Under the pieces are notes generated by a model. That model ran no database searches, was not told the origin of the DNA, and saw only the letters and a list, made by a program, of their open reading frames with translations. A program made the position numbers and the translations under genes. Source: Agrococcus baldri (GTDB lineage Bacteria > Actinomycetota > Actinomycetes > Actinomycetales > Microbacteriaceae). Taken from it: a DNA stretch of 64,000 nucleotides. Where the stretch lies: NCBI GenBank assembly GCA_900114805.1, contig FOZN01000001.1, positions 682,001-746,000 of the forward strand, written 5' to 3'. Positions 50,397-64,000 of the stretch are shown here, one piece after another. Each line of letters starts with the position of its first letter. The first letter of the stretch is position 1.

Positions 50397-51638
50397 TCAC
50401 CAGACCGTCTTGACGACCGGGTTGCGGTTGCGGAGGCTCTCGCGGTCGTCGCCGGTCACCTGGTTGTAGATGGTGTTGCCCCAGCCCTCGATCTTCAGGT
50501 AGTGGCCCACCTTCGAGTGGTACATCTCGTAGATCGAGCCGGGCATGCCGTCAGCGGTGTCGCTCCAGTCGCTGATGTTCTTCCCCGTGATCGACTTCAC
50601 GACCGAGTCCTGCCAGCCGGTGTTCGCGCCCTCGCCCGCCCACTTCTGCCAGCCGGTCTTGTTGGCGCCGGATTGGCCGAAGTCCTTCACCGCGCTCCAT
50701 CCCTTCTGGTAGACGTTGGGCTCGATCTTGGTCACACCGTCGGTGACGACGCGCTGCTTCGTGCCGAAGTTTGCGAACATGTCCCGAGCGAAGCCCGCCT
50801 TGTCACCCTTGAAGAGCTTGCCGGCCTTGCCGAAGGGGATGAGGTCGACCGCCGCCCAGGCGACATCGCCCCAGGAGCCGTCGCCGTCGAGAGCCATCAC
50901 AACGGTGAGCACCAGCGTCGCGACGGCGATCGCCGCGGCGATGGCCGCGACGATCGGTCCGCCGATGATGAGCGCGGCGATGCCGACCACCAGACCCGCC
51001 CACTTCAGGATCTCGAGGGCGATGTTGATCCTGCCCTTCCAGTCCTCCCAGGTGGAGTCCTTCAGGTCGTCGCTGAAGGCATCCTCGATCGTCCCGATCG
51101 CCTTCTCCCACGCGTCTTCCCAAGTGTCATAGGCGGTGTCGTACACGCCTGCGGCGTCTTCCCAGTCCTCCCAGGCTGCGAGCTTCGCCTGATCCTTGGC
51201 CTCCTGCTCGGCCTCCTCATCGCTGCCTTCCTCAGGCTTGCCGATGCCGAGGAAGTAGTCGGTGCCGTCCTTGTCGCCGGGCAGGCCGTCGTAGAGGTTC
51301 CACTTGTCGCGCGCGTCCTGGCAGGCGGTGTCGACCTGGGACTTGATGGTGTTCCGCACCTCGTTGCCGTAGGTCTTCAGTGCAGTGCCGAGGGGCTTAT
51401 AGAGCTCAGCAGCGAGCGTGAGCTTGTCGTCGGCGTCGCCGACCTTCTTCCGCAGCGCATCGACGGCGTCACCCTGCTGTCCGTCATCACCGCTGGCGAG
51501 CTCGCGCAAGGTGCCGGCCGCAAGCTCCATCCGGTAGCCGAGCTGCCAGACCTCGTTGCCCTGGGTCCAGATCTCGTCGCCGTCGCCCTCGAACTCGATG
51601 ATCCATCGGCTCTGATTGGTGTATGGCCAATGCGCCAT
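50397..51638 (-). CDS. T7SS-effector / polymorphic-toxin-like protein
   Basis: 413 residues. Residues 1-200 are mainly helical and charged, with several Trp (EIWTQGNEVWQLGYRMELAA; WEDWEDAAGVYDTAYDTWED), like putative T7SS-secretion-signal/WXG-LXG-type N-termini. Residues 209-250 are a long hydrophobic stretch. It is followed by GDVAWAAVDLIPFGKAGKLF, a pattern seen before the toxin part of polymorphic toxins. The last ~130 residues have no recognised catalytic motif. It is 26 bp after the 104-residue helical gene and under the same palindrome-associated promoter. A secreted effector is likely; toxicity is inferred only. Confidence 0.65.
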   Translation of the reverse strand: MAHWPYTNQSRWIIEFEGDGDEIWTQGNEVWQLGYRMELAAGTLRELASGDDGQQGDAVDALRKKVGDADDKLTLAAELYKPLGTALKTYGNEVRNTIKSQVDTACQDARDKWNLYDGLPGDKDGTDYFLGIGKPEEGSDEEAEQEAKDQAKLAAWEDWEDAAGVYDTAYDTWEDAWEKAIGTIEDAFSDDLKDSTWEDWKGRINIALEILKWAGLVVGIAALIIGGPIVAAIAAAIAVATLVLTVVMALDGDGSWGDVAWAAVDLIPFGKAGKLFKGDKAGFARDMFANFGTKQRVVTDGVTKIEPNVYQKGWSAVKDFGQSGANKTGWQKWAGEGANTGWQDSVVKSITGKNISDWSDTADGMPGSIYEMYHSKVGHYLKIEGWGNTIYNQVTGDDRESLRNRNPVVKTVW

Positions 51639-51664: not shown

Positions 51665-51979
51665 TCAGCTCTTCGGCGGCTGCTCGCCGCTCTCGAACTT
51701 CGAGGCCGCTTCCTCGTCGAACTGCTCGAACGACTTGTGCAGTCCGTCGGCCGCTTCATGGATGGTGGAGAGCGACTCCACGAGCCTCCCCCGCTTGTAG
51801 TCCCAGCGCGACTCCGACTCGCCTGCCTTGTCGGGGAGCTCGCGACGGTCCCAAGGCTTGCCGATGGCGTCGCGGATCAGATCCGAGCGGTCGCCGGCGT
51901 TCTCGAACTCCTCGATGATGGCGGCCAGCCGGGTCACGAGCCTGCCGAGCTCGTCGTACTTGATCAGCACGTCGTTCAT
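51665..51979 (-). CDS. Small helical T7SS-partner-like protein
   Basis: 104 residues, two predicted long helices: DELGRLVTRLAAIIEEFENA and LVESLSTIHEAADGLHKSFE, joined by a loop with KPWDRRELPDKAGESESRWD. Size, helical hairpin and Trp loop resemble WXG100 proteins or the small partners of LXG effectors. GGAAGG precedes the start; an ATG one codon upstream (51982) is also possible. Directly upstream of the effector-like gene, so a co-secreted partner or chaperone is a reasonable inference. Confidence 0.65.
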   Translation of the reverse strand: MNDVLIKYDELGRLVTRLAAIIEEFENAGDRSDLIRDAIGKPWDRRELPDKAGESESRWDYKRGRLVESLSTIHEAADGLHKSFEQFDEEAASKFESGEQPPKS

Positions 51980-52021
51980 CATGACCCTTCCGTTGTGGGC
52001 AGCGTGCCCGTCGTCCATGCA

Positions 52022-52067
52022 AATCTATGGTGCGCCCCAGTGCCGGCCAATGGGGAGACCTCCCCAT
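52022..52067 (-). promoter_or_regulatory. Palindromic operator and promoter 2 of the T7SS-like locus
   Basis: On the minus strand: ATGGGGAGGTCTCCCCAT (perfect palindrome, complement of 52050-52067), whose last T begins TTGGCC (-35, 52045-52050), then 17 nt to TAGATT (-10, 52022-52027). It drives the 104-residue gene and the effector-like gene, with a leader of about 35 nt. Confidence 0.8.
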
Positions 52068-52093
52068 CAGGCGCTGCGCCATCGGCGCGAAAA

Positions 52094-52115
52094 GGGGGCC
52101 GCTCGCGCGGCCCCC
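52094..52115 (-). terminator. Intrinsic terminator after the WXG100-like gene
   Basis: GGGGGCCGC and GCGGCCCCC form a 9-bp stem with a TCGC loop, followed on the minus strand by TTTT. It isolates the WXG100-like gene from the next promoter. Confidence 0.85.
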
Positions 52116-52129
52116 TCGGCGACAGCGTG

Positions 52130-52426
52130 TCAGCCCGTGATGCTGGCCGCAGCGCCCTCGTCCGTGTCCTGGATCATCTGCGACATGTCACGCAGCGCCT
52201 GCGCCATGCCCTCGACGCCCTTGGCGGCTTCCTTCATGCCCTCGGTCATGTCGGTGTACGAATCCTTGTAGGCACCCGAAGCCTGCTGCGTCTTGAAGCC
52301 GTCCTCGACGAGCTCGTCGACGTAGCCCTGCAGCTTGTCCAGCAGGTCATCGATGTCCGTCTTGCCGGTGTCGAGGTTGGAGGCAGTGCTCTCCATGTCG
52401 TCGTATGATGCGCCGAAGTCAACCAT
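52130..52426 (-). CDS. WXG100-family (ESAT-6-like) protein without the Trp
   Basis: 98 residues, the size of WXG100 substrates of type VII secretion. Two helices (DDMESTASNLDTGKTDIDDL to about 40; MKEAAKGVEGMAQALRDMSQ) flank the turn VEDGFKTQQASGAYKDSY; the Trp-X-Gly is replaced by an Asp-Gly-Phe turn, a variant seen in other actinobacteria. Monocistronic: its own operator/promoter upstream and a terminator downstream. Encoded 94 bp after the EssC-type ATPase. Confidence 0.85.
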   Translation of the reverse strand: MVDFGASYDDMESTASNLDTGKTDIDDLLDKLQGYVDELVEDGFKTQQASGAYKDSYTDMTEGMKEAAKGVEGMAQALRDMSQMIQDTDEGAAASITG

Positions 52427-52481
52427 CGGTCCTCGCCTTTCTCAACTGGGATCGTGGGCCCGGTCTGGACCAACTGCAACC

Positions 52482-52527
52482 AATCTAGGAAAGCTCGCCT
52501 GAACGCTCAATGGGGAGACCTACCCAT
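52482..52527 (-). promoter_or_regulatory. Palindromic operator and promoter 1 of the T7SS-like locus
   Basis: On the minus strand: ATGGGTAGGTCTCCCCAT (one mismatch to perfect, complement of 52510-52527), whose last T begins TTGAGC (-35, 52505-52510), then 17 nt to TAGATT (-10, 52482-52487). The palindrome overlaps the stop codon of the ATPase gene. It drives the WXG100-like gene with a ~50-nt leader. Same layout as the copy at 52022-52067. Confidence 0.8.
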
Positions 52528-55500
52528 GCGCAGCGGAGGCGGTCTGCAGCGTCGAGGACGGCGTGGCCTCGGCGAGCGGCATCTGCGTCATCACGCCCTT
52601 GCCGAACTGCACGAAGATCCCGCGGCCGACGGGCGACTCGCTGCGCTTGATCCGCGGGAACGGCACCTTGAAGACCGATTCGCCGTCGTAGGTGTCCGGC
52701 TGCAGCGCGATGCCCTGGCGGGCCGACTTCCACTCACCGATCGTCCCGCTGCTCGATCCGGCACGGGAGATGTCCGCCTCTCCGAAGAGCACGTGGTCGC
52801 TGTTGTTCACCGCGGACATGAGCCCGCGGAGCGCACGCTCCGCCGGCCCGTCGTTCAGCTGCGCGACGTCCTCGGCGACGATCACGATGCGGCCGGGCAC
52901 GGACTCGTCCACGACGAGCTCGGCGAGCTCCTTGGCGAGCTCCTCGACGTCGTCCGGGCGCACGGCGCTGCGGATCCATGGCCGGAAGTCGGCCAGCTCC
53001 GCGCGGCGGCCACCGAAGTGGAAGAGCTTCACGTCGGGGTCGAGGCGCTCCATCGCGGTGACGAGCGCGCGCAGCGCGTTCGTGCGCCCCGATTGCGGCG
53101 GGCCGACGATGGCGAACGTGCCGACCGGGTCGAAGCCGCGTGCTGCCAGCGTGTCCTCCGCGATCCCGAACACCGGCAGGCCGTCGACGCTGTCGGCCAG
53201 GTCGCGCTGTGCGACGCGCGTCGGCAGCGCCCCGATCTCGTCGACATCGGCGACGCCTGCCGCTCGCAGGTCGGCAGCGATCTGATCCAGCACCTTCGCC
53301 TGCTCCGCCACGTTCGAGGTGCCACCGATCACCGCCAGCTGGGTCTCCGACCCGTCGAGCAGCGCCCGGCCGGCCGGCGACGACTCGTCGAGCACGTCGC
53401 GGGCGACGCCCAGGTAGAGGTAGCCGTTCGGGTCGGCGAGACGGAGCACGATCTTCCTCGAGATGTTGCCGGTCACGCTGCCGCCGACCGAACCCGCCCG
53501 ATCCGCCGCGAGCACGGCGTGCACGCCGAGGTTGCGGCCCTCGCTGAGCACCCGCATGAACATCCGGTAGAACGGCGACCGCGCCGCGGGGATCTCCCAG
53601 TCCTTGCGGAACTCCGGGAAGTTGTCGACCAGCAGGAACACCCGCGTGGCCTTCGGGTCGACGATCGTGCGGTACTCGGCCAGGTTCGCCGCGTCGGCGT
53701 CGGCGAACGCCTTCGCGCGACGGTCCATCTCGCGGTTGAGCGAGCGGAGCAGACGCTGCACGCGCTCGGCGTCGTCGCCGTCGATGATCGAGCCGACGTG
53801 CGGCAGCCGCTCGAGCGCGCGCAGCGAGCCGGTGCCGAAGTCCAGGCCGTAGACCTCGGCCAGGCCCAGCTCCGGCCGCAGACCGGCCACCGTGCCGATC
53901 GTCTTCAGCACGGAGGACTTGCCGGATCCCGACGCCCCGAACACGATCATGGAGCCGTCGCGATCGGCATCGAAGTAGGTGGGCAGCTGCGCCTGCCGCT
54001 CGGGCAGATCGGCAAGGCCCAGCAGCACCTTCCCGTCGCCCTCGAGCGGCTGCGAGACGATGTCGATCGTCGTGTCGAGGTCATCGAGCCACGGTCGGCG
54101 CGGCGCAGGGATCGCGGCGCTGGCCGCCGCGTCGATCATGGTTCGCACGATCCGCTTCTGATCGTTGGGACCCAGGTCCTCGTCCTCGGAGTCGGACTCG
54201 GCGACACGCTCGATCTCCCACACCGCGGTCGATCCGAATCGCAGCTCGGCGACCTTGACCTCGGCGACGACGACCTCGTCCTTGCCCGACCAGCCGCCCG
54301 CATAGGCCGATTGGAACGGCACGAGGCGTCCGGGACCCGTCTTCGCGATGCCGCGACCGGGGATGCTCGGGTCGAACGAGGCTGCGACGGTGTCGTCCAC
54401 GACATCGCGCGAATCCGATTCGTCGGCCATGCGCAGCGCCACGCGCAGGTTGGTGTTGGCCCGCAGGTTGTCCTTGATGACGCCGGCAGGGCGCTGCGTC
54501 GCCATGATCAGGTGGATGCCGAGCGAACGACCTCGCTGGGCGATGTCGACGACGCCGTCGACGAACTCCGGCACCTCCTTGGCGAGCGCCGCGAACTCGT
54601 CGATCACCAGCACCAGCGCCGGAGGCGTCTCCGGGTCCTGGCGCTTCTCGAGCTCGAGCAGGTCCTTCGCCTTCTTGCGATTGAACAGGTGCTCGCGATG
54701 GTGCAGCTCCGCCTTCAGGCTCGTCAGCGCCCTGCGCACCAGGTGCTGGCTGAGGTCGGTGACCAAGCCGACGCAGTGCGGCAGCTCCACGCAGTCGGCG
54801 AACGCGCTGCCGCCCTTGTAGTCGACGAACAGGAACGTGACGCGGTCCGGGCTGTGCGCGGCCGCCATGCCGAGCACCCACGCCTGCAGGAACTCCGACT
54901 TGCCGGCGCCGGTCGTGCCGCCGACCAGTGCGTGCGGGCCCTGAGTGCGCAGATCGAGCGTCATGACGTCGCTCGCGCCCTGTCCCATCACGGCGCGCAG
55001 CGTGCCGGCGCGCTTCAGCCGCGGCAGTTGGGCGCCCGAGCGGTCGATGATGGTGGAGTTCTGGCGCCAGCGGTCGACGACCGCACCCGCATCCGCTGCC
55101 ACCTCGTCGCCGACCAGCGACAGGAACATGACGGCGTTCGGGATGTCGGAGCTGTCGTTGATCACGATGCTCGAGTCGATCACCGGCGCGAGCCGCTTGG
55201 CGAACATGCTCATGTACTCGAGCGAGACCCCCTCCACGACCACCGGGCGCTTCGCCTCACCGGCGCGCACCGATCCGGCCGTAGCATCCTCGAGACCGCC
55301 GGTGACGTCGACGAAGCTGCGGCAGGCCGCGGGCAGTGACTCCACCGTCGGCGCCACGAAGACGCCGTGCACGCCGACATCCGCCCCGCGCTCCAGGATC
55401 TGCGTCAGGCGCGGGCGGTCGACCGGGGCGTCATCGGTGACGATCACGATCACCGACACCGGCGGCTTGGCCTTCCTGTTCTCTGCGGCCCGCGAGACGT

Positions 55501-57070
55501 CGGTCCCGTAGTCCATCGGCGTCCAGGTGTCGTCGAGCGGACCGCGCGGCTCGGCGGCCTTCGTGCGCTTCATCACATGCTCTTCGAGCGAGTTGAGCAG
55601 GGCTGCGCCCGCAGGGGCGGAGTCGGCGAGCGGCAGGTCCTTGAACGGGTTCGTCTCGCTCGTGGTGTGCGGCAGCCACTTCAGCCAGTCGAGCTGCTCG
55701 GTCCAGTCGGCCCCGCAGAGCGCGACTGCCACGACCTCGTTGGGCGCGTGCAGCCCGAAGAGCTGGACGGAGATCGAGCGCAGCGCATCCGCCGCCAGTC
55801 CTCTCGGGCCCGCGACGCCGATGGAGCCGGATGCCGCGAGCGACTCGTACACCGGCACGTCGTCGACGTATCGGAAGCGCTCACGCAGCCGCTCGACGCG
55901 CTCCTCGAACTCCGGCAGGCCCTCGGACTCCTCGGATTCGACGTCGCGGATCGTCAGGCGCGACTCGGCTCGGCACGAGCCCAGCCGCACGCCCAGGAAG
56001 TTCCAGTGCTCCGGCCGCCTCGTCCAGAGCATCGGCCCCAGCCGCATGGCGTGCTCGAAGACCTCGGCGACCGGCGGCGCCTCCTGGTTGCGGATCTCGA
56101 CCTCGATCGGCTGCTCGCGGTAGAAGCGCTCCTCGAGATCCTCGTACTGCTTCTCGAACACCTGCTTCTCATGCAGCTGGCGCCCGCCGGCCTGCCGCTT
56201 CTGGTTGAAGTGGTTCGCGAGGAACATCAGCGGCGTCATCACGGCGATGAGGATCGACCGCGCACGACCCGTCATCGCATACAGCGCGCCGGCCATCAGG
56301 ATCGGCGTCATGAGCATTGGCCAGGGGAAGAGCTTGTCGGTGATCTCCTTCGGCAGCCGCGGCGGCTTGATGGCCTCTCCGGGGAAGCGCGGCTCGACCC
56401 GCGGGCTGCGGTTGAACATCAGCGCGCCGCCGCGCTCGAGCACCGGGTCGTCGCCGGCAGCGTCGAAGGAGCCGGCGAGCTGCACGACGAACTCCGAGTC
56501 GCCGATCGTGAACGGCTGCCCGGGGACGACCGTCAGCCGCATCACGAGCTCGCCGTCGACCAGGATGCCGTTCGAGGAGCCGAGGTCGACCAGCTCGATG
56601 TGCGTGCCCACCTCGATGCGCGCATGGCGCTTCGAGACCAGCGCGTCGTCGAGCACGATGTCGTTGCCCGCGTCGCGTCCGATGCGCCAGTGCCCCTTCG
56701 GCAGCTGGAACTCCTGCCCGCGCAGCGCGCCGCCGACGGCGCGCAGGACGACGACCGCCTCCGGCGCGGTGCCGGATGCCTCCCCGAAGCGCCGCGGGTT
56801 GGCACCCAGGTTCACCACCGACGCATGGAAGCCCGAGCCGATGGCCGCCTCGGCGACCAGCACATCCGGCTGCAGCTCGACCAGCTGCTGCTCCGTGGGC
56901 GGCGCCACCGCGAGGGTGAGGGTGTCGAACTCGCCGAAGGCGATGCTCTTGGCCGGGTCTGCCAGCGCGATCTGCCGCGCGACATCGGCGACGGTCGCCG
57001 TCGAATCGGCGGTGATGACCACGTCGGTGGGATCCACCGTCGGCCGATGCAGCGTCAGCTTGACCTTCAT
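52520..57070 (-). CDS. EssC/EccC-type FtsK-SpoIIIE ATPase with N-terminal FHA domain
   Basis: 1516 residues. Residues 1-90 form a beta-grasp/FHA-like region; a canonical FHA domain is at about 105-198 (WRIGRDAGNDIVLDD, SKRHARIE, LGSSNG), then two transmembrane helices (about 248-287). Three ATPase domains follow: D1 with Walker A GGTTGAGKSE (about 720) and VLVIDEFAALA; D2 with FGASGSGKSS (about 1045); D3 with GPPQSGRTN (about 1325), where Arg replaces the P-loop Lys, so D3 is probably degenerate. This is the motor that selects WXG100 substrates in type VII secretion. FHA suggests control by the nearby kinase. Confidence 0.93.
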   Translation of the reverse strand: MKVKLTLHRPTVDPTDVVITADSTATVADVARQIALADPAKSIAFGEFDTLTLAVAPPTEQQLVELQPDVLVAEAAIGSGFHASVVNLGANPRRFGEASGTAPEAVVVLRAVGGALRGQEFQLPKGHWRIGRDAGNDIVLDDALVSKRHARIEVGTHIELVDLGSSNGILVDGELVMRLTVVPGQPFTIGDSEFVVQLAGSFDAAGDDPVLERGGALMFNRSPRVEPRFPGEAIKPPRLPKEITDKLFPWPMLMTPILMAGALYAMTGRARSILIAVMTPLMFLANHFNQKRQAGGRQLHEKQVFEKQYEDLEERFYREQPIEVEIRNQEAPPVAEVFEHAMRLGPMLWTRRPEHWNFLGVRLGSCRAESRLTIRDVESEESEGLPEFEERVERLRERFRYVDDVPVYESLAASGSIGVAGPRGLAADALRSISVQLFGLHAPNEVVAVALCGADWTEQLDWLKWLPHTTSETNPFKDLPLADSAPAGAALLNSLEEHVMKRTKAAEPRGPLDDTWTPMDYGTDVSRAAENRKAKPPVSVIVIVTDDAPVDRPRLTQILERGADVGVHGVFVAPTVESLPAACRSFVDVTGGLEDATAGSVRAGEAKRPVVVEGVSLEYMSMFAKRLAPVIDSSIVINDSSDIPNAVMFLSLVGDEVAADAGAVVDRWRQNSTIIDRSGAQLPRLKRAGTLRAVMGQGASDVMTLDLRTQGPHALVGGTTGAGKSEFLQAWVLGMAAAHSPDRVTFLFVDYKGGSAFADCVELPHCVGLVTDLSQHLVRRALTSLKAELHHREHLFNRKKAKDLLELEKRQDPETPPALVLVIDEFAALAKEVPEFVDGVVDIAQRGRSLGIHLIMATQRPAGVIKDNLRANTNLRVALRMADESDSRDVVDDTVAASFDPSIPGRGIAKTGPGRLVPFQSAYAGGWSGKDEVVVAEVKVAELRFGSTAVWEIERVAESDSEDEDLGPNDQKRIVRTMIDAAASAAIPAPRRPWLDDLDTTIDIVSQPLEGDGKVLLGLADLPERQAQLPTYFDADRDGSMIVFGASGSGKSSVLKTIGTVAGLRPELGLAEVYGLDFGTGSLRALERLPHVGSIIDGDDAERVQRLLRSLNREMDRRAKAFADADAANLAEYRTIVDPKATRVFLLVDNFPEFRKDWEIPAARSPFYRMFMRVLSEGRNLGVHAVLAADRAGSVGGSVTGNISRKIVLRLADPNGYLYLGVARDVLDESSPAGRALLDGSETQLAVIGGTSNVAEQAKVLDQIAADLRAAGVADVDEIGALPTRVAQRDLADSVDGLPVFGIAEDTLAARGFDPVGTFAIVGPPQSGRTNALRALVTAMERLDPDVKLFHFGGRRAELADFRPWIRSAVRPDDVEELAKELAELVVDESVPGRIVIVAEDVAQLNDGPAERALRGLMSAVNNSDHVLFGEADISRAGSSSGTIGEWKSARQGIALQPDTYDGESVFKVPFPRIKRSESPVGRGIFVQFGKGVMTQMPLAEATPSSTLQTASAAHG

Positions 57071-57085: not shown

Positions 57086-57817
57086 TCAGTCCTGGTTGTC
57101 GTCGGCGTCGCGCAGCGCCGGGTCGTCGAGCAGCGGCAGATCGCTGCGGGTCACCAGCTGCGACGACACCGCGTACTCCACCAGTCGCGCTCGCCGGTTG
57201 CTGGCGAGCTTGCCGACGCCGCCGCGCAGCCCCTGCACGCCCATCCGGTCGAGCTTGTCGCAGACGTTGTCGAGCTTGCGGTTGAACCGGCTCATCGTCC
57301 AGCCGAGCCGGGCCGCCGCTGCGCCGCTGGAGGGCAGCTCGCTCACGCCCACGCCGTCGCGGCTGAGCATCGGCTCGGCGAGGGCGACGATCAGCAGCTT
57401 CTGCAGCTGCGTGAGGCCGACCGGCATGACGGTCGTCTCCCCCGACGAGCGGCGCCGGTGCTCGGTCGACATGGCGAACGAGGCGTCCTGCGAGTGGAGG
57501 CCGAGCTCGTACGTCGTCGGTCCGGCGGTGAAGACGATCGAGCACTCGGAGAAGACGATCGGCAGGCGCGCACCAGGCGACAGCCAGGACTGCACCGCGC
57601 CACCGCCGGAGGAGATGGTCGCCGACAGCCTGGAGCCGAGGTTCGAGAGCCACCACAGGCCGTCCTGGTTCCGGAGCTCGAGGAACTCGCGATGCAGGTA
57701 CTGGTTGTCGTCGACGGTGAGATCGCCCTCGCGGCCGATGACGAACGGCTGCGAGGGGTCGAGCGTGATCCACTCCCCCGCGAACTCGAGCTTCAGCTCT
57801 GGCACCTGCTCAGCCAT
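57086..57817 (-). CDS. FHA-domain protein with possible winged-helix C-terminus
   Basis: 243 residues. The N-terminal ~100 is an FHA fold (FVIGREGDLTVDDNQYLHRE, SNLGSR), though the binding loops are not fully canonical. Residues about 130-225 read as a DNA-binding-type helical domain: LTQLQKLLIVALAEPMLSRD, then AAARLGWTMSRFNRKLDNVC as a possible recognition helix. An FHA-winged-helix protein could be a phospho-responsive regulator, perhaps of the palindromes at 52050 and 52510 (inference). It overlaps the kinase stop by 8 bp and lies 15 bp before the ATPase gene. Confidence 0.7.
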   Translation of the reverse strand: MAEQVPELKLEFAGEWITLDPSQPFVIGREGDLTVDDNQYLHREFLELRNQDGLWWLSNLGSRLSATISSGGGAVQSWLSPGARLPIVFSECSIVFTAGPTTYELGLHSQDASFAMSTEHRRRSSGETTVMPVGLTQLQKLLIVALAEPMLSRDGVGVSELPSSGAAAARLGWTMSRFNRKLDNVCDKLDRMGVQGLRGGVGKLASNRRARLVEYAVSSQLVTRSDLPLLDDPALRDADDNQD

Positions 57818-59297
57818 TGACGCACCCTTCCGTGTCGTTCGATGACCGCCCGTCCGAGCGCACCAGTCGCACCAGGATGCACGACTCGCCGTCACCGTCG
57901 CGCTCGAGCGTCACCTCGGGCGCACTGGTCTGCGCCGTGACGGGGTCCCCGTCGCTGCGCTCGTAGCGGTACTGGAACGCGTCGCCGGTCTGGGGCTGCG
58001 CGTTGGTCCAGGTGAAGCGCACGGTGTCGCCGTCCACCGTGCCTCCGACGTTGATGGGGGCGGAGGGCCGCTGCGGCGCGGCAGGCGGCGCGACCGACTG
58101 GCTCGGGTTCGCCGGCGGCGCGGGCTGGTTGCCGGTCGTGAGGGCGAGCGCGACGATGCCGATGCCCAGCACGGCGACGACGCCGGCGCCGACGATTCCG
58201 AGCACGGCGCTGCGCCGGGAGCGCGGCTGCTCCGGCGGCGCTGCGGCTGCGGCCGGCTGCGGCGCGTCGCCCGCCGGCTGCCTGCGGACGGTGGCGTCCG
58301 ACACCGAGGAGCCGGTCGGCGCAGCACCGACGGACTGCGGCTCGCCGGCATGCGGGTCGACCGAGATGACGCCGCGGATGCGGGTCGCACCCCCGTCCTC
58401 CTCGTCGACGACCTCGGGATCGAGCGAGTCGTCGAGCACGTCGAGCGGCGTGACCGGCAGCGCCATCTCCGCCTCGACCTGCTGCAGGGCGCGCCCGAAG
58501 GCGACCGCGCTGGCGTGCCGGCGCGAGGGGTCGGGCTCCATCGCCGCGGCGAGCACGGCCTCGAGCCGCTGCGGCACGTCGTGGCGTGCCAGCGGCGAGA
58601 TCTCGCCGCGCTGGATGCGATCGATCAGGTCGACACTCGTGTTGCTGCCGCCGGGCAGCTCGAACGGCGTCCTGCCGGCGAGCAGCGTCGACAGCGTCGC
58701 GGCGAGTGAGAAGACGTCGGATGCCGGGGTCGACCTGGGCGGCTCGAGGAAGGCCTCGGGCGGCGACCACGGGATCGACATGCCGCTCGCGTCGTCGCCG
58801 ACGCCCGAGCTCGTGGCGATGCCGAAGTCGGTGAGCGCCGGACGGTTGTAGGCGGTCACGAGGATGTTCGCCGGCTTGATGTCGCGGTGCAGGATGCCGG
58901 CGCGGTGCGCGGTCTCGACGGCGCCCGCGATCTGCACGCCGAGCGCGAGCACCTCCGGCACCGAGAAGCGGTCGCGGCGGTAGCGCACGCCCAGGTTGGG
59001 CTTCGGGCAGTACTCCATGGCGAGGAACGGCCGACCGTCGGGCGCCACCGCCGCCCCGAAGATGGTCACGATCGACGGGTGGCTCGAGAGCTGCGCCATC
59101 ACGTTGGCCTCGTGCCGGAAGTTCTCGATCAGCTGCCGGTTGACCGCATCGGGCAGCAGCACCTTGACCGCCACCTTCCGGGCCGGCAGCAGCTGCTGAT
59201 AGAGGAACACGTCGGCGAAGCCGCCGGAGCCCAGCAGCGACAGGTAGTCGTAGCCGGGCAGCTCAGGAGGTGCCGAGGGTGCGCGCTTGGGGCTCAC
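57810..59297 (-). CDS. Membrane Ser/Thr protein kinase with extracellular FN3-like domain
   Basis: 495 residues. Kinase domain about 15-275: glycine loop LLGSGGFADVF, Lys45 in KVAVKVLLP, catalytic HRDIKPANILV (Asp139) and DFGIATS (157-159). A Pro/Ala linker, one transmembrane helix (about 363-387) and an outer domain (about 412-495) with fibronectin-III-like strands, SAPINVGGTVDGDTVRFTW, and two Cys. It is a receptor-like kinase, probably phosphorylating FHA-recognised partners in the operon. GTG start in a 4-bp GTGA overlap with the preceding gene. Confidence 0.92.
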   Translation of the reverse strand: MSPKRAPSAPPELPGYDYLSLLGSGGFADVFLYQQLLPARKVAVKVLLPDAVNRQLIENFRHEANVMAQLSSHPSIVTIFGAAVAPDGRPFLAMEYCPKPNLGVRYRRDRFSVPEVLALGVQIAGAVETAHRAGILHRDIKPANILVTAYNRPALTDFGIATSSGVGDDASGMSIPWSPPEAFLEPPRSTPASDVFSLAATLSTLLAGRTPFELPGGSNTSVDLIDRIQRGEISPLARHDVPQRLEAVLAAAMEPDPSRRHASAVAFGRALQQVEAEMALPVTPLDVLDDSLDPEVVDEEDGGATRIRGVISVDPHAGEPQSVGAAPTGSSVSDATVRRQPAGDAPQPAAAAAPPEQPRSRRSAVLGIVGAGVVAVLGIGIVALALTTGNQPAPPANPSQSVAPPAAPQRPSAPINVGGTVDGDTVRFTWTNAQPQTGDAFQYRYERSDGDPVTAQTSAPEVTLERDGDGESCILVRLVRSDGRSSNDTEGCVNG

Positions 59298-60829
59298 GGC
59301 GCCGGCTCGATCGTGACGACTTGCGCGTCGCCCAGGTCGAGGCGATCACCGAGCTGCAGGATGGTGGATGCCTCGGGCCGCAGCCGCTGCGGTGCCGCGC
59401 CCTCGCGCAGCAGCAGGGTGCCGTTGGTCGAGCTGAGGTCGATGGCGACGAGGTTCCAGTCCTCCATACGCAGCTCGATGTGGCTGCGCGAGATGTCCTC
59501 GCCGGGGCTCTCCACCGTCACCAGGCGGGGCACGCGGCCGTCCTCGACCCGGCGCGAGCGCGGACGACGGCCGATGACGACGCCGCGGCCCAGCGGCACG
59601 CGCTCACCGGAGGTGAGCACCGCGACGGCGACCTCGGGGCGGCGGCGCTGCGCGGCGGAGCCCTCGTCGATCGCCGCGCCGCACTGGCTGCACTGCGGCG
59701 TGCCGGGCGCGTTGACGTGGCCCTCGGGGCACAGCGTCGAGAGCACGAGCGGTCCGGTCGCCGGCGGCGTCGCGAGCTCGCGCTGCGAGCGCTCAGCCCT
59801 CAGCTCGCGGGCTCGATCGGCGGTGACGGTCATGCCGTCGTGATCGCCGAGCCCGGCGTCTGCGGATGCGGCCGGTGCCGCGGGAGGGACGGCTGCAGCC
59901 GCGCTCGTGGGCGCTGGCGGCTCCGCCGTGACGGGACGGGCGCTCGGCGCTGGGCGGGTGATCGGCGCAGCGGTCGGCGCAGCGCTCGGCGCAGCGCTCG
60001 GCGCGGCGGTCGGCGAGGTGGTGGACTCCGTCGGCGGCTGCGGCGCGGAGTCGATCGCGCGCACGTCGACGGCGGGCTTGATGAAACCGGGCACCGAGTC
60101 GATGAGCCCGCCGATCGGGTTGCCGGCGTCGGTGACGAAGGGACGGGCGGACTCTGGCTGCTCCGCGGGGGCTTCCGGCTCCGCCGGCGCTGCCGGCTCC
60201 GCGGGGGCTTCCGGCTCCGCCGGCGCTGCCAGCTCTGCGGGGGCTTCCGGGTCCGCGAAGGCTTCCGGCTCCGGAGCCTCTGCCCTCGCCTCAGTGGCGG
60301 CGGCCGGCGGCAGCGTCTGGCCGAACGCGCCCATGCTCGGCGCAGCGGGGGCAGGGGTGTCGGCGACGGGAGCCGCCTGCGCGTCGTCGGCCGACGCATC
60401 CGCCGGCCTGGGTGCGACGCGCACGGCGGCCACGCGGACCACCCCGCCCTCGAGCGGCAGCGTGGCGCCGTCGAGCGCGCCGAGGCCACCGGCGGCGATG
60501 CGCTGCCCGTCGCCGAGCTCGTCGAGCGACCACTCGGCGCCGAAGCGATCGGCCAGCGGCGACGCATCGGCGGCGGCAGGCACGCCGTGGCGACGCAGCA
60601 GCAGACGAGCGCCATCGACATCGACGAGCGCGATGAGTGCCGTCAGCTCCTGCTCGATCACGGCGCGCAGCCCTTCCAGCGATGCCACGGAGGCGGCCTG
60701 GGCGTGCAGCTCCGCCGCGCGAGTGGGAGCGAGGTCGCGCTCGCACACCAGCACCACCCGGTCTGCCGCGATGCACCATGCCTCGCCTGGCGCGTACTCG
60801 ACGCGCGCGCTCTGCGTCCATCCGCTCAT
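59294..60829 (-). CDS. FHA protein with zinc ribbon and repeat linker
   Basis: 511 residues. The N-terminal ~150 is an unrecognised alpha/beta region. Residues ~155-360 are an Ala/Pro/Glu-rich disordered linker with a 12-residue repeat (see repeat feature). Then a zinc ribbon with CPEGHVNAPGTPQCSQCG near residue 390, and a C-terminal FHA domain (about 415-505; IGRRPRSRRV, SRSHIELR, SSTNGTLLL). It is cytoplasmic, and likely a phospho-threonine adaptor. ATG at 60829 overlaps the PP2C stop by 4 bp; the frame is open further upstream but only as PP2C antiframe. Confidence 0.85.
   Translation of the reverse strand: MSGWTQSARVEYAPGEAWCIAADRVVLVCERDLAPTRAAELHAQAASVASLEGLRAVIEQELTALIALVDVDGARLLLRRHGVPAAADASPLADRFGAEWSLDELGDGQRIAAGGLGALDGATLPLEGGVVRVAAVRVAPRPADASADDAQAAPVADTPAPAAPSMGAFGQTLPPAAATEARAEAPEPEAFADPEAPAELAAPAEPEAPAEPAAPAEPEAPAEQPESARPFVTDAGNPIGGLIDSVPGFIKPAVDVRAIDSAPQPPTESTTSPTAAPSAAPSAAPTAAPITRPAPSARPVTAEPPAPTSAAAAVPPAAPAASADAGLGDHDGMTVTADRARELRAERSQRELATPPATGPLVLSTLCPEGHVNAPGTPQCSQCGAAIDEGSAAQRRRPEVAVAVLTSGERVPLGRGVVIGRRPRSRRVEDGRVPRLVTVESPGEDISRSHIELRMEDWNLVAIDLSSTNGTLLLREGAAPQRLRPEASTILQLGDRLDLGDAQVVTIEPAP
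60161..60268. repeat. Three tandem 36-bp repeats in the FHA/zinc-ribbon gene
   Basis: Units at 60161-60196, 60197-60232 and 60233-60268 (the last diverged) encode a 12-residue Glu-Ala-Pro-Ala-rich repeat in the disordered linker. A 12-bp GGCGCAGCGCTC-like repeat also occurs at about 59964-60012 in the same gene. Confidence 0.8.
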
Positions 60830-61653
60830 GGCCGCACCTCCGTGGGGATCGTGTCGTCGAGCGACTGCGCATGGGTGTCGAACAGGTCCTCGTCGGCGAG
60901 GGACACGGCATCGACGTCGACCACGACGACGGAGACGTTGTCGGCCGCGCCGGCATCGAGTGCCCTGCGCATCAGCAGCGCGGCGGCTGCCGCGGGCGAG
61001 TGGACATCGCGCAGGATCTGCTCGATCTCGCCGTCGTCCACCTCGCCGGTGAGGCCGTCGGAGCACACCAGCAGGCGCTGCGCGTGCTCGGCGGGCCGCA
61101 GCCACACGTCGGCAGGCTGCCGCTCGCCCGCGCCGAGGGCGCGCGTGATGACGTTGCGGTGCGGATGCCGGCGGGCATCGGCGCGCCGCAGCGCACCGGT
61201 CTCGACCAGCTCCTGCACCACCGAGTGGTCGACCGTGACCTGCTGGAGCTGCCCGCGCTCATAGAGATAGGTGCGGGAGTCGCCGATGTTGAGGATGAGC
61301 CAGTGCGCGACGCCGGCCACATCGACCAGCACGGTGCCCGAGAGCGTCGTGCCGCCCATGGGCTCGCCCAGCGAGCGCTGCTGCACCGACTCGAACGCGC
61401 GCTCGACCGCATCCTCGACGCATTCGACATCGGCGAGCGTGCGGCCCTTCAGGCTGCGGAACGCCTCGATCGCGAGCGCGCTGGCGACATCGCCGGAGGC
61501 GTGACCCCCCATGCCGTCGGCGACCACGAACACCGGGAACGAGGCGAACACGGAATCCTCGTTCACGGTGCGGCGCATGCCGGGGTGCGTGGCGCCCGCC
61601 CAGCGCAGCGAGATCGACGGGTGGCTGAAGCGGAACTCTCCGACGGTGCTCAC
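60826..61653 (-). CDS. PP2C-family Ser/Thr protein phosphatase
   Basis: 275 residues. Metal-binding motifs RRTVNEDSVFA, VVADGMGGHASGD, GDSRTYLYERG, LLVCSDGLTGEV and GAADNVSVVVVDVD are complete, so it should be an active Mn/Mg phosphatase (PstP/Stp type), cytoplasmic with no transmembrane segment. It overlaps the FHA gene by 4 bp and the RDD gene by 4 bp. It would reverse the operon kinase. Confidence 0.95.
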   Translation of the reverse strand: MSTVGEFRFSHPSISLRWAGATHPGMRRTVNEDSVFASFPVFVVADGMGGHASGDVASALAIEAFRSLKGRTLADVECVEDAVERAFESVQQRSLGEPMGGTTLSGTVLVDVAGVAHWLILNIGDSRTYLYERGQLQQVTVDHSVVQELVETGALRRADARRHPHRNVITRALGAGERQPADVWLRPAEHAQRLLVCSDGLTGEVDDGEIEQILRDVHSPAAAAALLMRRALDAGAADNVSVVVVDVDAVSLADEDLFDTHAQSLDDTIPTEVRP

Positions 61654-63215
61654 GATGCCGCTCCTGCCTCGACGGTGACGGTGCGATCGCCGAAGCGCAC
61701 CACGTCGCCCGGCATGAGCGCGAAGGGCTCCCCTGCCGTCAGCTGGTGCTCGGCACCGCGGCGGACCACGCTCGAGCCGTTGGTCGAGGCGCGGTCGACC
61801 GCCGCGAGGGGATCCGCGGTGATCAGCAGGTGCGTCTTCGAGATCGAGCGGGTGTCGTCGACGAACGGCAGCAGGTGCGCGACCACCTCCCCGGCGGCCG
61901 GCGACGGGTTGCGGCCGATCAGCGCGGCGCCGGTGATCGCGAAGCGGTCGCCGTTGTCGAAGGCGAGCGTCGCGGCGGCAGTGGCGGCGCGCGGGCGGGC
62001 ACGGGTGGCCTCGAGATCCTCGTCGTCGGCTACCTCGATCCGGCGCACGGTGCGATCGTCGATCTCGTCGTCGAGATCGGGCTCGATGACGGTCTCGTCG
62101 CTGATCTGGCTGGCGGCGCGGGGGGCGCGGGGCTGCGGTCGCTCGGCCGTCGGCGCCTGGGCGGCCGGCACCTGGGCGGCCGGCACCTGCGCCGGCGGCG
62201 CGGCCGCCGAGTGGGCCGACGGAGCCGCGTGGGCTGCCGGGGCCGACGGCGAGCCGTCCCTGCCGGGGACGCTGTCGACGATGCCGTCAGCGAGCGGGCG
62301 CGGCGCGCTCGGGGCGGGCTGCGGCGCGGAGGGCCGCGCGCGGCCGCTGAGCTCGCCGGGCCGGTAGCCGCCCAGCCGGGCGCCGCCGGCGGGCATGCCC
62401 GGCAGCGTCTGCGTGGGCGCGGGCTGCTCGGCATGGGTCGGCAGGCCGACCTGCGTCGCGGCGCCGGGCTCGACGGGGCGCGCTGCGCCGACGACGCCCG
62501 AGCTCACCCGGGCGCCGGGGCGGTAGGCCTGCGGTGCGCTCGCCGACGGGGTCGCCAGCGACGGCAGCTGCGACTTGGCCGCCTCTGGGACTGCCGCGAT
62601 CGTCTTGCGCGCCACGCGCATCCGCTTCTCGTGGTACGGATTCAGCCCGTGGGTGATGTCGACGAACCAGGTGCCCGCCGCCTTGTCGAGCCAGCCACGG
62701 CCGCGCTTCTCGCCGTCGAACAGCGGCGAGATGAAGAACAGCACCGGACCGATCAGCGGCACCAGGAAGATCAGGTAGAGCAGCAGGCCGCGCAGCAGCG
62801 CGCGGCGGAATGTCGGCTTGGCCAGGGTGACGACGTTCACGCTGCGGATGCCGACGAAGGCCTTGCCCATCGTGACGCCGCGGCGGCCGTGCAGCGCGAG
62901 CTGCGTGATGCAGAAGGCGAGGGTGAGCACGAACGACAGGCCCGCGGCGAGGATCATCCAGAGCAGGTTCGGGTGGCTGACGAAGCCGGCGGGCGTCAGC
63001 GCACCGGTCGCGAGGGCCAGCAGCGAGGGCAGCGCCACCAGCCAGTAGGGCAGCTGCAGGAGGGCGTACACCGAGAACTCGATGATCGAGGCGAGCGCCC
63101 TGCGCCCCAGCGGCGCGGGCCGGATGCCGAGCGCGGCCGCGTAGGCGGGATCCGGGCGCCCGTCCTCGTCGAGCCCCTCGATCACCTCGCGGCTCTCGTC
63201 GATCTCCCAGATCAT
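61650..63215 (-). CDS. RDD-family membrane protein with C-terminal FHA domain
   Basis: 521 residues. RDD domain at about 25-190 with several transmembrane helices (ASIIEFSVYALLQLPYWLVA; LLRGLLLYLIFLVPLIGPVL) and the conserved RRGVTMGKAFVGIRSVN. A Pro/Ala-rich linker (about 230-400) with QVPAA repeats leads to an FHA domain (about 425-515; ITGAALIGRNPSPAAGEV, SISKTHLLI, DRASTNGSS). It overlaps the PP2C gene and the transglutaminase-like gene by 4 bp each. It could tether phospho-signalling to the membrane. Confidence 0.9.
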   Translation of the reverse strand: MIWEIDESREVIEGLDEDGRPDPAYAAALGIRPAPLGRRALASIIEFSVYALLQLPYWLVALPSLLALATGALTPAGFVSHPNLLWMILAAGLSFVLTLAFCITQLALHGRRGVTMGKAFVGIRSVNVVTLAKPTFRRALLRGLLLYLIFLVPLIGPVLFFISPLFDGEKRGRGWLDKAAGTWFVDITHGLNPYHEKRMRVARKTIAAVPEAAKSQLPSLATPSASAPQAYRPGARVSSGVVGAARPVEPGAATQVGLPTHAEQPAPTQTLPGMPAGGARLGGYRPGELSGRARPSAPQPAPSAPRPLADGIVDSVPGRDGSPSAPAAHAAPSAHSAAAPPAQVPAAQVPAAQAPTAERPQPRAPRAASQISDETVIEPDLDDEIDDRTVRRIEVADDEDLEATRARPRAATAAATLAFDNGDRFAITGAALIGRNPSPAAGEVVAHLLPFVDDTRSISKTHLLITADPLAAVDRASTNGSSVVRRGAEHQLTAGEPFALMPGDVVRFGDRTVTVEAGAAS

Positions 63216-64000
63216 CGGCGCCTCCGCTCTCTCCTGCGTCTCCGGAAGGACCGCAGCGACAGCGCGCCCAGCAGTCGCTGCATCGGCTTCGCCTCCATCC
63301 GCATGCCCTTGACGCTCCGCTCGACATCGAGCCAGAAGGCATCGACATCCTCCTTCGGAGGATCGCCCGGGCCGAAGACACCCTCGTCGACGAATTCGCC
63401 GATCTCGCTCGCTCTCGAACGAGGGTAGCGATCCTCGACGGTGGCTGCGACTTCGCGCCGGGTGACGCCCGCGGGCACCGGCAGCCCGAGGTCGACCGCA
63501 TGGTCGACCACCTCGTGCCAGCCGCCGGAGAGGCGATCGCTCTCGCGCTCCGCGCGGTAGCGCCTCCGCCACCGCGCGGCCTTGATCGCGCCCACGACGA
63601 TGAACGGCGAGGCGAGCAGCAGGATGAGCAGCAGCGAGCCGCCGCCGATCCACAGCCAGATGACCCAGGAGGCGTCCTCGACCTCCTCGTCCTCCTCCTG
63701 CCCCTCGTCCGCGACGGTGTCGGGCGACATGTCCGCCGGCTCCTCGGGCGGCTGCGGCGGCTGCAGCACCTGCGGCTTGGGGTCCGGTTCGGGCTCGGGC
63801 TCGGGCTGGATGTCGTCGTTGTCCTCCGGCGGCGTCGGGTCGAAGCGCACCCAGCCGTAGCCCTCGAAGGGCACCTCGACCCAGGCGTGCATCTCGCCGC
63901 CGGTGAGCTCGACCGGCTGGTCGCCACCCGGGAAGCCGTCGTCGGGATAGAGCCCCATGACGACGCGTGCCGGCACGTTGATGCGGCTCAGCGCCAGCGC
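63212..64000 (-). CDS. Transglutaminase-like membrane protein (TgpA-type), C-terminal part
   Basis: 262 residues present; the frame runs off the right edge, so the N-terminus is missing. The visible part begins in a transglutaminase-like core (SRINVPARVVMGLYP, then MHAWVEVPFEGYGWVRFDPT, which holds the active-site His and downstream Asp region). A Glu/Pro-rich stretch, one transmembrane helix (WVIWLWIGGGSLLLILLLAS) and a basic cytoplasmic domain follow. TgpA-type proteins in actinobacteria usually lie with MoxR and DUF58 genes upstream; those would be beyond the window. 4-bp overlap with the RDD gene. Confidence 0.88.
   Translation of the reverse strand, partial: ALALSRINVPARVVMGLYPDDGFPGGDQPVELTGGEMHAWVEVPFEGYGWVRFDPTPPEDNDDIQPEPEPEPDPKPQVLQPPQPPEEPADMSPDTVADEGQEEDEEVEDASWVIWLWIGGGSLLLILLLASPFIVVGAIKAARWRRRYRAERESDRLSGGWHEVVDHAVDLGLPVPAGVTRREVAATVEDRYPRSRASEIGEFVDEGVFGPGDPPKEDVDAFWLDVERSVKGMRMEAKPMQRLLGALSLRSFRRRRRERRRR

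Follow-up and report, generated by a model that had tools for sequence, protein, structure and literature searches.

The window, the 64,000-nucleotide stretch of Agrococcus baldri DNA analyzed here, carries on its minus strand a type VII secretion (T7SS) locus. Its genes encode, in order, an RDD membrane protein (61650-63653; PF06271, E = 1.3e-13) with a C-terminal stretch that looks FHA-like by inspection and a true start that is probably further in; a PP2C-type phosphatase (60826-61653; PF13672, E = 3.6e-12); an FHA protein; a Ser/Thr protein kinase (57810-59297; PF00069, E = 1.8e-34); a 243-residue protein with a predicted FHA domain followed by C-terminal HTH-like helices (57086-57817), our candidate reader of the sites described below; an EssC/EccC-type ATPase with an FHA domain (52520-57070); a 98-residue WXG100 protein (52130-52426); a 105-residue Esx-like small protein (51665-51982); and a 413-residue protein (50397-51638). 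Three small genes and then rpsL-rpsG-fusA-tuf follow. The WXG100 protein, which matches PF06013 (E = 1.9e-12) and scores 36.3 bits, below the cut-off, with TIGR03930, is likely a secreted partner. For the Esx-like gene, the most likely start is 51982 or 51979, which agrees with its relatives, and not 52018; the longer reading (51665-52018) has no Pfam match, and similar proteins beginning with MNDVLIKY lie behind the same site in two relatives (loci L073 and L074). The 413-residue protein, LXG-like by inspection alone and with no Pfam match at E ≤ 0.001, is a candidate effector that is probably encoded on the Esx-like transcript. As for the ATPase, it reaches 530 bits (E = 1.2e-158) with TIGR03928, the T7SSb EssC model, below the curated cut-off of 778.4. 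It matches the EssC, EccCa, and EccCb models, all below cut-off, and the locus may be T7SSd-like or belong to a further subtype.

Two palindromic operators, each found by pattern and by weight matrix, stand in front of the putative substrate genes, on the same strand. Operator 2, ATGGGTAGGTCTCCCCAT (52510-52527), is located 5' of the WXG100 gene and shares one base with a −35-like TTGAGC (52505-52510), recognized from sequence and position counts; 17 nt beyond this hexamer, and 23 nt from the 16-bp core of the operator, lies the −10 element TAGATT (52482-52487). Operator 1, ATGGGGAGGTCTCCCCAT (52050-52067), is located 5' of the Esx-like gene and likewise shares one base with a −35-like TTGGCC (52045-52050), which is again followed after 17 nt by TAGATT (52022-52027). 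At both operators the first T of the −35-like hexamer is the end of the palindrome. The twin palindromes touching the −35 that an earlier note had described are where it placed them. A pattern search allowing up to three mismatches finds these two places alone in the window (as four rows, the operators being near-palindromic), where shuffled sequences lead one to expect 0.07. A weight matrix built from 107 sites of relatives, with the window left out, also puts them at the top: the best 12 window rows, down to 9.3 bits, are the same two places in various spacings and strands, and none of the matches listed lies before the ATPase operon or the other machinery genes. The sequence and position of operator 2 are kept in L073 and L074, and the TAG stop codon of the ATPase gene (52520-52522) lies inside it. 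This overlap, together with sites behind gene ends in L003 and L004, would be compatible with a palindrome that acts as an RNA or DNA structure, such as a terminator or a processing site. We consider this very improbable: no U-run follows the palindrome, a separate terminator-like element, GGGGGCCGC...GCGGCCCCCTTTT, is already present 3' of the WXG100 gene, and neither the fixed distance to the −10 nor the paired change with a protein helix, both described below, would be expected of such a structure.

The motif is not confined to the locus. Four perfect TGGGNAGNNCTNCCCA sites occur in the genome, namely, the window pair, C5:192523, and C6:647404, and 11 sites occur at one mismatch or fewer, compared to 1 for a reversed control. 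A near-perfect site (C7:768784) lies 5' of an Esx-like gene and a weaker one (C4:159784) 5' of a DUF6459-type gene; behind the sites at C7:769785 and C6:436073, the −10 is missing from its expected position. Among relatives, 37 of 60 carry at least one perfect site (reversed control, 3 of 60), and TGGGNASNNSTNCCCA recurs across Micrococcales, mostly 5' of small WXG100/Esx-type genes. The earlier note had seen no other copy, which holds for the window and not for the genome, and an operator specific to this locus, as it had proposed, has to be given up in view of the genomic sites and those in relatives. Its view that the pair is more than a simple duplication stands, as the flanks of the two copies differ. 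That there are two copies in one locus, only 460 bp apart, would suit a recently duplicated promoter block or plain coincidence, but given the unlike flanks, the shuffled expectation, and the spread among relatives, we regard either as practically negligible.

A search in the genome and in relatives for a set spacing to the −10 had been suggested with the first description. In 312 oriented hits, that is, matches to TGGGNASNNSTNCCCA with at most one mismatch in both orientations across the window and the fetched loci (a few genomes, e.g., L079/L188 and L081/L209, being counted twice), TANNNT begins 23 nt 3' in 92 and 24 nt 3' in 45 (137 of 312), while every other offset from 0 to 49 occurs at most twice. 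The half-sites are nearly fixed in 132 distinct promoter-like sites, the central dinucleotide being preferentially TT (53 sites) or TC (35 sites), and just outside the palindrome a T and then a G occupy the −35 position. The hexamer makes a weak −35, conserved at the first and third bases and with mostly a base other than T at the second. Nine loci (L206, L209, L242, L257, L258, L259, L263, L269, and L270) have intact half-sites and no TANNNT at 22 to 25 nt. We observed TTGAGT at the −10 place behind otherwise canonical operators in L209, L257, L258, L269, and L270, perhaps a lineage-specific −10. A de novo palindrome search in 32 loci lacking the motif or its −10 yielded one isolated candidate.

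With the first T of the −10 placed at −12, the center of the site would fall at −43.5 or −44.5. The site abuts or overlaps the −35 at a fixed phase, as at class II activator promoters, and this position, on its own, suggests class II activation. A repressor operator that blocks the −35 of otherwise competent promoters would touch the −35 just as well, and EspM, the nearest published regulator by architecture, is a repressor of whiB6; yet a repressor need not keep one phase, as the sites do with their two adjacent spacings, nor does a weak −35 suit a competent promoter, and we therefore hold repression to be unlikely, if worth keeping in mind.

We then asked what the 138 promoter-like sites precede. 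A first open reading frame (ORF) follows at 111 of them, none follows at 17 (two of which, L082 and L087, encode a WXG protein when the sequence is read), and the end of the locus is reached at 10. The 111 ORFs include some spurious ones, such as those across the structured RNA in L039 and L093. By our own motif rules and reading, 76 of the 111, 85 to 112 residues long, fall into three WXG100/Esx-like groups (34, 29, and 13). Pfam matches at E ≤ 0.01, which overlap in part, are WXG100 (49), WXG100_2 (9), YbaB (7), DUF6317 (7), EspC (5), PPE (5), DUF6459 (3), RDD (2), FHA (2), LppM (1), GerE (1), and others; BLOC1_2 matched 13 of the 111, which we take as chance matches to coil-like sequence. 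In two Microbacterium loci (L225 and L229) the site lies 5' of an RDD/FHA gene like the one at 61650-63653 in the window. Recurrence only before WXG100 or effector genes, the condition named in the first description, is thus not supported, and since a structured RNA and a DUF6459 gene also belong to it, the regulon is not restricted to substrates. Individual loci add to this picture of targets: a DUF6459-type (Rv3235-like) gene at L041:6281-6694 stands behind a weaker operator, DUF6459-type genes in L097 and L110 stand behind perfect ones, and in a genome of another family a perfect operator precedes a lipoprotein-like gene (L083:1362-2414) that is probably the one LppM-domain match.

The structured RNA, of about 170 nt, lies behind the operator at C6:647404 (L039:6456-6630; about 647455-647630 of C6); an alignment of 11 Agrococcus loci shows this stretch to be conserved. 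Its fold has seven helices in which 98.0% of the cells pair, a fit that is destroyed by sliding the partners, and 11 of its 41 pairs changed on both sides, compared to a mean of 5.0 in shuffles, none of 500 of which came as high. In all ten loci inspected, six of which come from genomes represented in the alignment, it lies 3' of an operator; in L312 this operator has an A-C..C-T core. Exact copies of a 17-base seed of the RNA occur in 6 of 299 genomes of the family, and these 6 are the only members of this genus in the set; in three Agrococcus genomes (G003, G012, and G015) the RNA was not found above chance. Rfam at E ≤ 1 gave no match at the RNA in the five of its loci searched, nor in four other loci, and a known RNA family was accordingly rejected. 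Regulation of WXG100 mRNAs by the RNA gained no support either: in four genomes, the duplex energies did not fall outside those spanned by 44 control gene starts.

The protein encoded at 57086-57817, which the earlier note had put forward for testing as an FHA-winged-helix protein, is most likely the reader of these sites: it is the candidate best supported by co-occurrence and by a paired change of protein and site. Of 297 genomes of the order, 131 matched a profile of its HTH part, and we counted 125 of them as carriers after setting aside six weak matches (E = 3.9e-7 to 1.7e-8, in one genus; two have one site). At least two perfect sites are present in 70 of the 125 carriers and in 0 of the 172 genomes that lack the protein (reversed pattern, 1/125 and 4/172). 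At least one perfect site occurs in 101/125 with the protein (reversed control, 16/125) and in 20/172 without it, close to the 24/172 of the reversed control. WXG100 genes are present in 275 of the 297 genomes, including 161 of the 172 without the protein (two no-match genomes being placed by elimination), and the motif therefore tracks the FHA + HTH protein and not WXG100 genes generally. Among the 15 genera tabulated with both states, the proportion is higher with the protein in 12, lower in 1, and tied in 2. Because genomes are related, P values for this co-occurrence overstate their independence. Nor does co-occurrence by itself tell the protein apart from the neighboring genes, as it is encoded within the locus. 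Perfect sites are absent from 24 of the 125 carriers; two of these (G257 and G296) keep intact half-sites with another core, and variant sites explain only a few of the site-free carriers. Autoregulation was considered and rejected: in the fetched flanks of 80 loci, several of them short, the promoter-like sites listed are all 3' of the regulator gene and none is 5'.

The paired change comes from Agrococcus, where the regulator is present in 21 of 22 genomes searched, and also in G018; the genome missing it is 65% complete, and one regulator match runs off its contig. Among 104 loci compared, 98 retain the segment FNRKLDNVC[DE]K. Of these 98, 55 have canonical promoter-like sites, 43 have none in the fetched stretch, and none has variant sites. 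G003, G012, and G015 have no perfect site and clearly diverged copies of the regulator. In L265 (G012) the helix reads FNRRLDTLC and there are three TGGGGACTTCTCCTCG sites; in L266 (G015) it reads FNRRLDALC, with AGGGGAGTTCTCCCCT twice and TGGGGAGTTCTCCCCT once. These changed sites lie 22 to 23 nt before TANNNT, 5' of WXG100/Esx-type genes, and canonical sites are absent from both loci. One further AGGGG site in G015 lies 5' of an Esx-like gene, and AGGGGAGNNCTCCCCT occurs three times in G015, once in G012 (with no −10), and in none of the 22 other Agrococcus genomes. The G003 contig that appears as both L191 and L267 is too short for sites to be seen, and the remaining two of the 104, L278 and L280, differ elsewhere and have no site. 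Although the paired change is seen in only two genomes, whose protein has also changed elsewhere, divergence alone does not explain it: 30 regulator loci that are 66 to 100% identical to the window's (counting its own) all keep FNRKLDNVC[DE]KL, and 26 of the genomes concerned have perfect sites. Our own WXG100 models matched in 5 of 41 loci tried, two being L265 and L266, so that most motif-free loci are uninformative and not contrary. G018, which has the usual helix, shows no perfect site in the 19 kb around its regulator; its perfect sites lie in other parts of the genome, one of them 5' of the RNA.

In a structure model of the protein, the changed residues fall within helix 175-191, the predicted recognition helix, which with helix 164-171 would form the HTH-like part. 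Comparison of this model to solved folds indicates an FHA fold over approximately residues 1 to 112, the rows of that comparison covering the FHA part; a sequence profile did not find FHA in this protein. Residues G28, R29, H42, R43, N59, and G61 are invariant in 57 sequences of the protein. The phosphothreonine signature of FHA domains, S-R-x-H, is not intact in this FHA part. Pfam gives no match for the HTH part, including none to GerE (PF00196) at E ≤ 5, and a sequence search against solved structures returned nothing for the whole protein and two chance-like matches for the HTH part.

Dimer sites of LuxR/NarL-type regulators often have a 7-2-7 layout, which the symmetry of the operators fits, and the genome has 15 GerE-domain matches; moreover, 1 of the 111 first ORFs, by sequence the one in L256, has a GerE domain. 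A response regulator of this type, or another transcription factor, could then bind the palindromes while the FHA protein merely travels with the locus. However, a scan of 18 window proteins from the locus and next to it gave no GerE match, and both the presence pattern and the paired helix/site change point to the FHA protein, which makes another reader quite unlikely. A LuxR-type identity of the FHA protein itself is not supported, as it has no PF00196 match and its profile reaches an hhalign probability of 2.9% against eight GerE domains of the genome.

From the computed sites, their spacing, targets, and conservation, the co-occurrence, the paired change, and the modeled FHA fold, we infer, with a probability of roughly 0.74, that the palindromes are the operators of a T7SS-substrate regulon, bound by a dimer of the 57086-57817 protein that acts as an activator and is tuned by phosphorylation through its FHA domain. 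The dimer would bind the TGGG-N-A...T-N-CCCA half-sites about 43.5 bp before the predicted start and contact the sigma factor at the weak −35 (TTGRSC), activating the WXG100 promoter and the Esx-like/effector promoter together. Its activity would be set, through the FHA domain, by a phosphothreonine signal from the neighboring kinase and phosphatase. Since no site was found before the machinery genes of the window, the substrates would be switched on separately from the machinery. The dedicated regulator of T7SS substrates apart from the ATPase operon that had been suggested for this locus thus gains from the conservation of the sites, their activator-like spacing, and their absence before the ATPase operon, and loses its restriction to the locus. 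Little seems to have been described of how T7SS transcription is controlled in bacteria other than mycobacteria, staphylococci, and bacilli. A readable operator provides a genome-wide list of candidate T7SS substrates, including small Esx-like proteins without a Pfam match, and allows one to test, in harmless bacteria, how a T7SS senses its own state; the natural pairs in which protein and site have both changed are a ready specificity experiment.

The closest parallel is EspM (MMAR_5438/Rv3863), the ESX-1 regulator of mycobacteria, which, according to PMC7002343 and PMC11005418, has an N-terminal FHA domain and a DNA-binding C-terminal HTH half, is encoded beside an ESX locus, and governs secretion genes. 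Its C-terminal half binds the whiB6-espM region and whiB6 is repressed, and at no fewer than 363 residues EspM exceeds the 243 of the window protein (same papers); the terms "inverted repeat" and "palindrom" are absent from the main text of PMC7002343. In the structure model the window protein has the EspM domain order, an N-terminal FHA and C-terminal HTH-like helices. It gives no match to the EspM model (NCBIfam NF052403) at E ≤ 1, a range in which HMMER filters drop most matches above 0.1, and the FHA part of the window ATPase matches at 0.0051. EmbR/SARP proteins are built from an N-terminal OmpR-type HTH, a BTAD, and a C-terminal FHA. We rejected membership of the window protein in this family, as it has only 243 residues and the FHA domain comes first with the HTH behind, in contrast to EmbR of Mycobacterium tuberculosis, where the FHA is C-terminal (chain 283-382 in 2fez). 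DegU at yukE of Bacillus subtilis is similarly a phospho-controlled transcription factor needed for T7SS (PMC3701619), but is the response regulator of a two-component system. The T7SSd of Actinomycetota likewise combines an ATPase that carries an FHA domain at its N terminus with a kinase of the same cluster (PMC11217815); however, among the mentions listed from that paper (12 of 19), a regulator is named for T7SSi alone (the LytR-like TsiN), and no FHA-HTH regulator or operator appears. In the titles and beginnings of abstracts listed, with few subscription papers among them, we found no literature on the motif or the regulator apart from the EspM and T7SS papers. The earlier note's remark that it had not seen such control described has to be qualified, since EspM already provides an FHA + HTH regulator at an ESX locus, if one that represses whiB6. 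We lean, by a little, toward a wider reading in which the window protein represents a new family, separate from EspM, of FHA-HTH activators encoded in T7SS loci, with one operator, substrate expression coupled to kinase signaling, and the Agrococcus RNA; its reach would be much of Micrococcales, substrate expression would be separate from that of the machinery, and the RNA would be a dedicated transcript.

Some smaller observations concern transcripts and plasmids. The 5' leaders of WXG100 mRNAs have a common GGTCC...GGGCC-type stretch that could form a hairpin (52430-52480 in the window). On the minus strand at L040:6524 and L105:2501, an operator with a −10 leads into a conserved stretch with no evident ORF, which by inspection heads toward the 3' end of a convergent DsbA-like gene and is possibly a second RNA. 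In two relatives (L096:2501 and L098:2501), an operator precedes a short conserved transcript with a terminator-like hairpin, a candidate for another RNA. Finally, among plasmids, a relative of the regulator's HTH part is encoded in one record, an Arthrobacter replicon.
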